Of a stretch of 64,000 nucleotides of DNA, positions 19,268 to 30,668 are shown piece by piece. The stretch covers positions 3,367,741-3,431,740 of the forward strand of contig NZ_CP110848.1 of the NCBI RefSeq assembly GCF_026240635.1, written 5' to 3'. The position numbers and the translations under genes are program-made. The DNA comes from Trichothermofontia sichuanensis B231 (lineage in GTDB: Bacteria; Cyanobacteriota; Cyanobacteriia; B231). How positions within the stretch are numbered: the stretch's first letter is position 1; each line of letters starts with the position of its first letter. Under the pieces are notes generated by a model. It was not told where the DNA came from. It worked only from the letters and a program-made list of their open reading frames with translations, and made no database searches.

Positions 19268-20881
19268 ATGAGTTACTGTGTTAATCCAGTATGTCCCAAG
19301 CCAGAAAACCCAGCCAATGCGCTGACGTGTTTAGCTTGTGGTGCCAAGCTGCTCTTGCGCGATCGCTATCGGATGGAACAAATGCTGGGCCAAGGGGGCT
19401 TCGGAGCAACCTTCCTCGGTCGAGATGAGGCTCTACCGGGGCAACCCTACTGTGTGGTTAAGCAACTGCGGCCCACCTCCACGGCTCCTCATGTTTTGAA
19501 GATGGCCCGCGATCTATTCCGGCGGGAGGCCAAAACCCTGGGCAAAATAGGGAGCCATCCCCAAATTCCCCGCCTGCTGGACTATTTTGAGGCGACCACC
19601 GAGTTTTATCTGGTTCAGGAATATATCAGTGGTCTAACACTACAACAGGAAGTCAAGCAGTCGGGGCCGTTTTCTGAGCAAGGGGTGAAGCAGTTCCTCA
19701 GTGAATGCCTGCCGATTTTGCAATACATCCATTCCCAGGAAGTGATCCACCGGGATATCAAGCCCGCTAACCTGATCCGGCGGGAGCAGGATCGTCGCTT
19801 AGTGCTGATCGACTTTGGTGCTGTCAAAGATCAGGTGAATCCTGAAGCCGCCAGTCTGTCTGATCAGACAGCTCTAACCTCCTATGCGATCGGGACACCG
19901 GGCTATGCCCCCCCCGAGCAAATGGCTATGCGCCCGGTGTATGCCAGTGATATTTATGCGCTGGGGGTGACCTGTTTATTTCTGCTAACGGCCAAAACCC
20001 CCAAGGACATGAACTATAACCCGGCCACGGGGGAAACCATGTGGCGGGAGCATGTGCATGTCAGCGACCACTTTGCGGAAGTCTTGTCAAAGATGCTGGA
20101 GGTTTCAGTTCGTCATCGCTACCAATCGGCGGACGAAGTCCTGCGTGCCCTCGAATTGGAACCCTATCTGGACAGTTTGGCCCAGGGCATGATCAATACC
20201 GCTGTTTCGCCGCCCAATGGCAGTCTGGCGTTCTCCCGGTCGCTGGCTCGTGATGATACGCCCTCGGAAGGAGGTTCCCTCTCCCGCACTGCCCAGATGG
20301 CCAAAGCCATTCGGGAACGGCGGGCCAAAATGGAGCCAGCCGCCAGCCGCCTGAGCGGGGGGCGATTGGCGGTTTCGCGATCGATATCTGGGCCGCTGAC
20401 AACGGGCCAACCCAGTAGCGCGGGCAAGAAGGGCCACACCCCGCCCCGCAAGCTGACGGCGGAGGATGTACTCACTTACTACACTAAGGGACGCCGGGAC
20501 TTTGGGGCGCAAGACCTCTCTAACCTAAACTTGCAAGGGGCTAATCTAGAGAGTGCGATCTTTCACGACGCCAAATTGCTCAAGGTCAATTTGCAAGGGG
20601 CTTGCTTGTCAGAGACGAACTTCAGTCAAGCCAATTTGAATCAAGCCAATTTGCGGGATGCCATATTAACTAAAGCCTATTTGAACCACTCTGATTTGCA
20701 AGGGGCCGATCTGCGGGGAGCGGATTTAAGCGGGGCCTATCTCACCAATGCGAATTTACGGGGAGCGAATCTTTGTGGTGCTATCCTAACGGGTGCGAAG
20801 GTAACGGATGAACAGCTAGCCGTAGCTAAGACGAATTGGATGACGGTGCGCCCCGATGGTAAACGGGGGATCTTTAAGTAG
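19268..20881 (+). CDS. spkB: Serine/threonine protein kinase SpkB-like with pentapeptide repeats
   Basis: A 537-residue Hanks-type kinase. N-terminal Cys motif CVNPVCPKPENPANALTCLA (four cysteines, possible metal or redox site), then a kinase domain (about residues 33-300) with glycine loop LGQGGFGATF, catalytic HRDIKPANL, DFGAV in place of DFG-L, and GTPGYAPPEQ. A basic/serine-rich linker (about 310-400) leads to a C-terminal pentapeptide-repeat right-handed helix (A(N/D)L.. units, about 410-515). This architecture matches SpkB of Synechocystis, linked to oxidative-stress signalling. It is 11 bp upstream of the HAD gene and probably cotranscribed. Confidence 0.92.
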   Translation: MSYCVNPVCPKPENPANALTCLACGAKLLLRDRYRMEQMLGQGGFGATFLGRDEALPGQPYCVVKQLRPTSTAPHVLKMARDLFRREAKTLGKIGSHPQIPRLLDYFEATTEFYLVQEYISGLTLQQEVKQSGPFSEQGVKQFLSECLPILQYIHSQEVIHRDIKPANLIRREQDRRLVLIDFGAVKDQVNPEAASLSDQTALTSYAIGTPGYAPPEQMAMRPVYASDIYALGVTCLFLLTAKTPKDMNYNPATGETMWREHVHVSDHFAEVLSKMLEVSVRHRYQSADEVLRALELEPYLDSLAQGMINTAVSPPNGSLAFSRSLARDDTPSEGGSLSRTAQMAKAIRERRAKMEPAASRLSGGRLAVSRSISGPLTTGQPSSAGKKGHTPPRKLTAEDVLTYYTKGRRDFGAQDLSNLNLQGANLESAIFHDAKLLKVNLQGACLSETNFSQANLNQANLRDAILTKAYLNHSDLQGADLRGADLSGAYLTNANLRGANLCGAILTGAKVTDEQLAVAKTNWMTVRPDGKRGIFK

Positions 20882-24394: not shown

Positions 24395-24625
24395 ATGATG
24401 TCATCAGAGCATATCCGTTGGCTTGTGCCGATCGCGCCCTATGTTGCACCGGAGATTTTGCAGGTTCACCAACTTGCCTACGACCTCCGGTATGAGGTTG
24501 AGGCCCGCCGGGAGTTTCAACGCTATTGTCAGTGGTATTACGAAACGGCTAGCCGCAATCAACAAGAATTTCTCAAGATGCAGCAGGATATTAATATCCT
24601 AGGATGGTTTTATCGCTGTCGCTGA
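24395..24625 (+). CDS. Small conserved hypothetical protein
   Basis: A 76-residue protein, MMSSEHIRWLVPIAPYVAPE, with GAGGGAAA as ribosome site. It is rich in aromatic and charged residues and predicted helical (QLAYDLRYEVEARREFQRYC, QWYYETASRNQQEFLKMQQD). It has no signal or membrane helix. I recognise no domain; small proteins with this HxLAYDL..EV..RREFE..CQWY pattern are, as far as I know, confined to cyanobacteria. It ends 19 bp before the KaiB-domain gene and may be cotranscribed with it. Confidence 0.65.
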   Translation: MMSSEHIRWLVPIAPYVAPEILQVHQLAYDLRYEVEARREFQRYCQWYYETASRNQQEFLKMQQDINILGWFYRCR

Positions 24626-24644: not shown

Positions 24645-25463
24645 TTGACCCACTCAATCCTCTTGTCTTCTGTTCCTGTACCTGATCGTTTCAAAGGAAT
24701 TGCCCTGTTTACCCCTGGTGGGGATGCAGTGTATTGCATCGATCCTGCCAAGCAGAAACATTGGCACGTGCAACTCTGTACAGCCCTGCAAGCGATTCTG
24801 GATTTGCCTGAACCGCCCCACTTCCTCGTTCCTGCCTATACTGCGACGATCGATCGCTGGCGCGATCCCGATACCCAGGATCTACGGTGGGTCGCGGAGT
24901 TGTATCCCCCGGTGCGGCAGTATCAATTGTTGTTGAATGCCATGTTTCAGACCCCAGGGGTATCCTGGCAGGTCGTGCCGTGGCGGCAATCGGCTGGCAA
25001 CCCCATTCTCTTGGCTGCCTATCGGCAGCAATTCCCCCAACTGTGGGAGTATCACAACCTCCTTGTTCAGGTGGGACAGCCACAAGTGGCCAGGGTTCCC
25101 CTAGCTGCCCACCCCTGGACGAATCCCCTGGTAAACCGTTGGCCTCTCGGACTTACCCAATCCCAACCCGCTGGCCCGATCGCCGGCTATGCCCTGCGTC
25201 TCTTTGTCTCCGATTACGATGGTATGACCGAAAAAATCCTGCACAATCTACGGCAGGTCCTAGAACACTCCCTCGCCCATCCCTATACGCTTAAGGTCAT
25301 TAGTGTGGTCAAACATCCTGAACAGGCCGAGCAGGATCAAATTACGGCAACCCCCACCTTGGTGAAGTTATGGCCTCCCCCGGTGCGCAAAATAGTGGGT
25401 GATCTGGGGACACCCGAACAAATCCTGAGCCTTCTCAGCAGCCCTGTCCCCTATGATGGCTAG
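24645..25463 (+). CDS. Protein with C-terminal KaiB-like (thioredoxin-fold) domain
   Basis: A 272-residue cytoplasmic protein. Residues about 180-268 match the KaiB/SasA-N domain: YALRLFVSDYDGMTEKILHN, then YTLKVISVVKHPEQAEQDQI, then ATPTLVKLWPPPVRKIVGDL. The cis-proline region (ATPTL) and the RKIxGDL segment, central to KaiB fold switching and KaiC binding, are kept. Residues 1-175 are an unrecognised domain with many W/P residues. The only start in frame is a TTG at 24645 without a clear ribosome site, so translation may be coupled to the small gene upstream. This could be a KaiC-interacting output or modulator protein; stand-alone KaiB is ~100 residues, so this is a distinct architecture. 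Confidence 0.75.
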   Translation: MTHSILLSSVPVPDRFKGIALFTPGGDAVYCIDPAKQKHWHVQLCTALQAILDLPEPPHFLVPAYTATIDRWRDPDTQDLRWVAELYPPVRQYQLLLNAMFQTPGVSWQVVPWRQSAGNPILLAAYRQQFPQLWEYHNLLVQVGQPQVARVPLAAHPWTNPLVNRWPLGLTQSQPAGPIAGYALRLFVSDYDGMTEKILHNLRQVLEHSLAHPYTLKVISVVKHPEQAEQDQITATPTLVKLWPPPVRKIVGDLGTPEQILSLLSSPVPYDG

Positions 25464-29684: not shown

Positions 29685-30659
29685 TGAGGTACAATACCAA
29701 TCAAAGACTTGTATGCCAAGGTAGCACGCCATGAAGCCCTATGCCATTGAATTTCGTCAGAAGATTATTGATGTCTATGAATCTGAGCCGATCTCGCAAA
29801 GAAACTTAGCAGAACGCTTTTGTGTTGCCAAGAGCTTTGTCCAGAAATTATTGAAACAACGTCGTGAAACTGGCTCAATCGCGCCCAAGATTCGGACCAA
29901 ACAAATGCCAACTAAACTCAATGAGGAACAGTTGGCAGTGCTTGCCCGCATCCTGGAAGAACATAATGATGCCACCTTAGACGAGTTACGTCAATTATTG
30001 CTAGACGAGACCGGTGTCAGCGTCAGCCGCTCGACCATTGACCGGATGCTCAAGAAACTGGCAATCACATTAAAAAAAACGCTCCATGCCGATGAAAAGG
30101 AGAGTGAAGCCGTCCAGGAAAAACGGTTCCAATTTTGGCAGTTAGTGCAAGGCATTCTCGCTCAAGACATGATTTCCATCGATGAATCTGGCATTAACCT
30201 AGCCTTAACTCGTTGACGTGCCCAATCACCTAAAGGTAAACGTGCTCAGAAGCGGGATCAAAATGTGTCCGTGTTGGCGCCATTGGCTTCCAGGGGATGA
30301 TTACTCATGTTGCGGTGATGGGCAGCGTTGATAAGTTGACTTTTGCAGCCTTTATTGCCTGTAAGTTAGTGTCGAAACTATGGGCCGGAGCTTGCGTCTT
30401 TGTTGATAATTGCTCCATTCATATTAATGAGGAGATTACCAAAATGATCACGGCGGCAGGTGCCCAGTTGATTTATTTACCACCCTATTCACCTGATTGC
30501 TCACCCATTGAGAATTTCTGGTCTAAGATCAAGGCCATATTACGTGCGCTTCAGGCGCGTTCATATCCCGACCTTGCTGAGGCGCTTGAGACAGCTTTTA
30601 GTCAAGTTTCTGATGCGGATATTGAACACTGGTATACTCATTGTTGTTATTGTACCTCA
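29685..30659 (+). mobile_element. IS630-family insertion sequence, degenerate
   Basis: Inverted termini TGAGGTACAATA at 29685 and its complement TATTGTACCTCA ending at 30659, with further partial matches inside, bound a 975-bp unit containing a broken IS630 transposase. No clear TA target duplication was seen at the edges. The transposase frame runs 9 bp past the right terminus, so the right boundary may have been altered. Confidence 0.7.
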
Positions 30660-30668
30660 CCAGACTAG
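29731..30668 (+). pseudogene. IS630-family transposase, broken by stop and frameshift
   Basis: Residues 1-161 (MKPYAIEFRQKIIDVYESEP) contain the N-terminal HTH and linker (RSTIDRMLKKLAITLKKTLH) and the first catalytic Asp in SIDESGI. An in-frame TGA at 30214-30216 interrupts LALTR*RAQS. About 80 bp later a frame change leads into ITHVAVMGSVDKLTFAAFIA, with the second Asp in VFVDNCSIH and the Glu in SPDCSPIENFWSKIK. All three DDE residues survive, but at least two lesions prevent a full product. Some IS630 members use frameshifting, but the extra TGA argues that this copy is dead. Confidence 0.85.

Follow-up and report, generated by a model that had tools for sequence, protein, structure and literature searches.

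In cyanobacteria, genes of the elongated KaiB family, also named KaiB-4, lie almost always directly behind pilT2, the gene for a predicted second PilT, which points to a link between a clock-protein family and cell movement. The family itself was already known and had been left unexplained, and its linkage to pilT2 is new here, no paper linking KaiB-4 to pilT2 having been found in the literature that could be searched. The linkage supplies a specific hypothesis on the family that can be put to the test, and it could account both for the role of KaiB-4 and for the retention of a second PilT in many cyanobacteria. Should the link prove physical, the Kai clock, or a KaiB fold, would have a molecular motor as a direct output.

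The gene at positions 24645-25463 (+ strand) of the window, i.e. the whole 64,000-nucleotide stretch of Trichothermofontia sichuanensis B231 DNA that was analysed, is an ordinary member of this family and is present as a single copy in its genome. Its 272-codon ORF with a TTG start encodes a protein of 272 aa in which a novel N-terminal domain (residues 16-146, KGIALFTPGGD to QQFPQLWE, positions 24690-25082 (+)), known only from cyanobacteria, is followed by a linker whose length varies in the family alignment (residues 147-180, positions 25083-25184 (+)) and by a KaiB domain (residues 181-266, positions 25185-25442 (+)) deprived of the canonical C-terminal tail, G89 and D91. An earlier note on this DNA had claimed a KaiB domain as part of a larger protein whose N-terminal domain is new, and this was confirmed by the Pfam KaiB match of residues 185-263 (82.9 bits against a cut-off of 27 bits; E=1.3e-23), which is far beyond chance; the best PDB sequence matches of the protein are KaiB chains, 8UBH among them. 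Residues 1-175, which that note did not recognise, indeed gave no match in Pfam, NCBIfam or PHROGs by profile search, the unknown domain proper being restricted to residues 16-146. The protein terminates where the C-terminal tail of canonical KaiB would begin.

Proteins of this kind were described by Schmelling et al. 2017 (PMC5520375) as 'elongated KaiB', about 250 aa long, with roughly 150 additional N-terminal residues whose conservation is limited to cyanobacteria, and their KaiB domain was named KaiB-4 by Wayment-Steele et al. 2023 (PMC10808063). The window protein agrees with them in architecture, length, restriction to cyanobacteria and type of KaiB-domain sequence; it differs in being encoded apart from pilT2 and at two positions, where D and S replace the usual G16 and D46. 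The isolated KaiB-4 domain of Thermosynechococcus (T. elongatus vestitus) is monomeric and stably fold-switched by NMR (PDB 8UBH), this thioredoxin-like state being the form that canonical KaiB takes to bind KaiC (PMC10808063).

The distribution of the family was established with a profile of the N-terminal domain, which scores the window protein at 4.4e-66, searched against the phylum sample, 117 genomes of which belong to the window's class. The domain is present in single copy in 69 of these 117 genomes, with one marginal match (E=4.9e-4) in the sample outside the class, and every intact gene at the loci that were read encodes it together with a KaiB domain. Absence of the family from KaiABC genomes, the finding by which the earlier note was ready to abandon its reading, was not observed, as kaiABC and a sasA-type gene accompany KaiB-4 in the window genome and KaiA and KaiC both score above cut-offs in 68/69 KaiB-4 genomes, the exception (G038) being a 220-contig draft. 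KaiA and KaiC are near-universal in the class.

Throughout 40 KaiB-4 neighbourhoods a single gene family recurs besides KaiB-4 itself, the next commonest real neighbour, a WecB-type epimerase identified by eye, being found at 14/40 loci. The recurrent neighbour encodes an ATPase of the PilT/PilU family (472 bits with TIGR01420, cut-off 319) bearing a long proline-rich N-terminus, which is the mark of cyanobacterial PilT2 as opposed to PilT1 of the pilBTC locus (PMC12288463). By these sequence features it is PilT2, a paralogue of the type IV pilus retraction ATPase, and it stands as a genomic partner of the KaiB-4 family, not fused to it. Profile searches placed pilT2 directly upstream of KaiB-4 and on the same strand in 57 of the 63 unique loci, with a median of 167 nt between the pilT2 stop codon and the conserved KGIALFTPGG motif. 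Genome-wide, PilT2 is present in 65/69 KaiB-4 genomes, and in 62 of the 65 genomes with both, spread over 19 families, KaiB-4 follows pilT2 immediately on the same strand; the window genome and two others (G185 and G179) are the unlinked exceptions. Co-occurrence of both genes gives p=0.001 by Fisher's test with phylogeny ignored, and the case for the link is founded on the retained adjacency rather than on this value.

Genomes in which the pair is incomplete were also considered. PilT2 occurs without the full KaiB-4 family in 34 genomes, and an intact KaiB-4 occurs without PilT2 in three (G046, G227 and G177). In G191, pilT2 is followed by a 151-aa ORF (L145:2837-3289 (-)) containing a KaiB domain without the N-terminal domain. 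The pair is therefore usually inherited together and strongly, not absolutely, linked. It is intact in G137, and two genomes closely related to this one, G141 and G177, are both devoid of PilT2 and of nearly all PilT-family signal; the KaiB-4 reading frame is still open in G177, and in G141 the gene is broken into pieces (loci L102 and L124), the pseudogene being located in a 2,794,318-base contig with kaiA and kaiC and without PilT2.

Comparison of 66 KaiB-4, 22 KaiB and 20 SasA domains (T. elongatus numbering) at the KaiB-KaiC contact positions named in a review suggests that the KaiB-4 domain is a pre-switched KaiB whose KaiA/CikA strand is kept and whose KaiC-facing helix is altered. Y40 is found in 100% of KaiB-4 domains, R74 remains KaiB-like, and position 43, at which K is required for rhythm and for the binding of KaiA (PMC6378743), has K in 96% of them and Q in 90% of SasA. 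KaiB-4 clearly departs from a residue common to KaiB and SasA in two columns: K58, stressed in the published structure of KaiB with the KaiC CI ring, is invariably K in KaiB, K/R in SasA and Q/H in 96% of KaiB-4, and L53, where KaiB and SasA agree, is Q in 90% of KaiB-4. Since both are replaced, contact with KaiC may be lost. Replacement of the ground-state residues G89 and D91 is known to push canonical KaiB into the fold-switched form, and the non-conservation of both residues in KaiB-4 together with the missing tail is consistent with the NMR result.

In the window genome, kaiA, kaiB and kaiC are clustered at C1:4424263-4426991, with canonical kaiB at C1:4426306, and the one sasA-type gene is at C1:2559945. 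The window protein scores 72.1 bits with the KaiB equivalog model, below its cut-off of 145.3, and 25.6 bits with the SasA model (cut-off 342), the latter match being confined to the KaiB region. With canonical KaiB (KaiB1), a protein of about 100 aa, it shares a homologous domain comprising the beta2 strand YxLKVIxV with K43, ATPTL and PPxR-R/K; KaiB-4, on the other hand, has the extra N-terminal domain, K58Q and L53Q, lacks G89/D91 and the C-tail, and lies outside the kaiABC locus. SasA likewise carries a KaiB-like fold on a larger protein; this domain, however, is N-terminal and accompanied by a histidine kinase in SasA, whereas in KaiB-4 it is C-terminal with no histidine kinase, retains K43 and has lost K58.

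The reading preferred here, with a probability of roughly 45%, is that KaiB-4 is a KaiB-fold adaptor acting with PilT2 and possibly carrying clock information. Either the N-terminal domain or the pre-switched thioredoxin-like KaiB domain would dock on PilT2 or on the pilus base, and the KaiB domain, by its conserved KaiA-contact strand and K43, would still touch a clock partner, which could be KaiA or CikA through strand beta2 or, more weakly or in altered form, KaiC. Pili retract through PilT ATPases, and the pair might let the time of day, or the KaiC/KaiA state, set PilT2-driven retraction, for instance in phototaxis; the window genome would have retained the same protein encoded apart from pilT2. 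The adjacency to pilT2 over 19 families, which no other neighbour approaches, argues for such an adaptor, as do the broken KaiB-4 of G141, which has no PilT2 and keeps kaiA and kaiC, and the fold-switched domain with Y40 and with K43 where SasA has Q. A precedent for pilus function as a clock output is given by S. elongatus, in which the KaiC state times pilus-dependent competence (PMC7125226). Adjacency is nevertheless no proof of contact, the window copy is unlinked, each partner occurs without the other in some genomes, and the replaced K58 and L53 may have cost the protein its KaiC contact. A further point against the adaptor is that the negative phototaxis of a Synechocystis pilT2 mutant was reported from a single uncomplemented clone (PMC12288463). 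It is conceivable, if doubtful, that KaiB-4 either binds the PilT2 hexamer and a Kai protein, one per domain, so that the clock would act on motility directly and not through transcription, or represents a KaiB fold that has passed from the ring of KaiC to that of PilT2.

The most probable alternative, though an unlikely one, is that KaiB-4 has left the clock, its KaiB fold having exchanged one hexameric ATPase that it once bound, KaiC, for another, PilT2, with no role left for KaiC. The same replacements of K58 and L53, the pilT2 linkage and the decay of the gene alongside PilT loss while kaiA and kaiC stay would all fit this proposal, which is countered by the KaiB-like K43, Y40 and R74 and by the restriction of the family, bar one draft, to genomes with KaiA and KaiC, a restriction to be read against the presence of both in nearly all genomes of the class.

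The earlier note had proposed that a KaiB fold borne on a larger protein could compete with KaiB or SasA for KaiC; in the form weighed here, a constitutively fold-switched KaiB would contend with both for the CI ring of KaiC and adjust the period or the output. What stands of this model is that the KaiB domain of the family adopts the KaiC-binding fold according to the published NMR, in agreement with its unconserved G89 and D91, and that KaiC is encoded in the same genomes. It is weakened by the Q/H that occupies K58 in nearly all members, by a location outside the kai locus next to pilT2 and by the breakage of the gene in G141 with kaiA and kaiC still present. Because K58 and L53 are replaced and G89/D91 and the C-tail missing, simple competition for KaiC, although possible, is not favoured, and the model as a whole appears improbable. 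The conserved neighbour being pilT2, not a clock gene, points instead to a pilus-linked role. Equally improbable is a mere sharing of the transcript with KaiB-4 acting elsewhere, e.g. as the thioredoxin-fold binding domain of an unrelated pathway, which would suit the three unlinked genomes (the window's included) and the three with an intact KaiB-4 and no PilT2, but not a gene pair that has stayed together across 19 families as the genes around it changed.

The N-terminal domain, through which the adaptor could dock, was analysed by sequence and by model. The window protein is 47-56% identical to 20 relatives, and 20 aligned members of the domain gave no meaningful Pfam match. PDB sequence searches returned weak matches to coiled-coil proteins, and those to stathmin were rejected as they look like helix-composition matches. 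The possibility of two fused KaiB copies was ruled out by the lack of any KaiB match in the N-terminal domain, in agreement with Schmelling et al. 2017. The full-length AF2 model of the window protein is poor (pLDDT 55, with a low-confidence KaiB region), but the isolated N-terminal domain of a homologue (L004, 20 sequences) was modelled with pLDDT 83 and pTM 0.75 as what would be a small alpha/beta domain. Foldseek with this model gave no match at E<=0.001, and the best VIA matches reached a Z of 4.0 with gelsolin/ADF-cofilin (ADF-H) domains (rmsd roughly 3.4-5 over ~80 residues), Stay-Green also being matched at a Z of about 4. Therefore, the fold was left without a name.

Regarding the start codon, the TTG start of the earlier note was right in kind, its exact position being either 24645 or 24663, both TTG. 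In 34 of 58 distinct KaiB-4 genes no ATG is found in the 30 codons that precede the conserved motif, and a TTG recurs family-wide precisely 12 codons ahead of it, which suggests a conserved weak start of KaiB-4 genes, perhaps tied to translation behind pilT2.

The window KaiB-4 is not downstream of pilT2, its neighbours being an ArsA-type gene, a 76-aa ORF and tadA. The pilT2 of this genome is intact at C1:4112182-4113240, about 0.7 Mb away, with a divergent WecB-type gene upstream as in other genomes and no KaiB-4 downstream, and the KaiB-4 gene has probably been relocated. An IS630-type transposase remnant, split into two ORFs and apparently decayed, lies 4.3 kb downstream of KaiB-4 (window 29731-30668); its position alone is noted, and no causal tie to the relocation is claimed. 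The 76-aa ORF (24395-24625 (+)), 19 bp upstream of KaiB-4, has no Pfam family match and is a real cyanobacterial gene, as had been proposed, with matches in 20 of the 39 genomes searched, the window genome included. Its homologues, common as they are, lie far from KaiB-4, none being near it in 40 other neighbourhoods or, outside the window genome, wherever both positions are known; therefore, the coupled two-gene unit put forward with it is not conserved, the adjacency is local to the window genome, and the ORF was ruled out as a KaiB-4 partner. Elsewhere in the window, positions 19268-20881 encode a serine/threonine kinase fused to pentapeptide repeats.

Finally, the primers published for Cyanothece 51142 cce_0435, 'kaiB3', translate to KaiB-4-type motifs (HHLLET, VSATPT). 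These motifs make it probable that this kaiB3, for which oscillation in constant light has been reported, belongs to KaiB-4.
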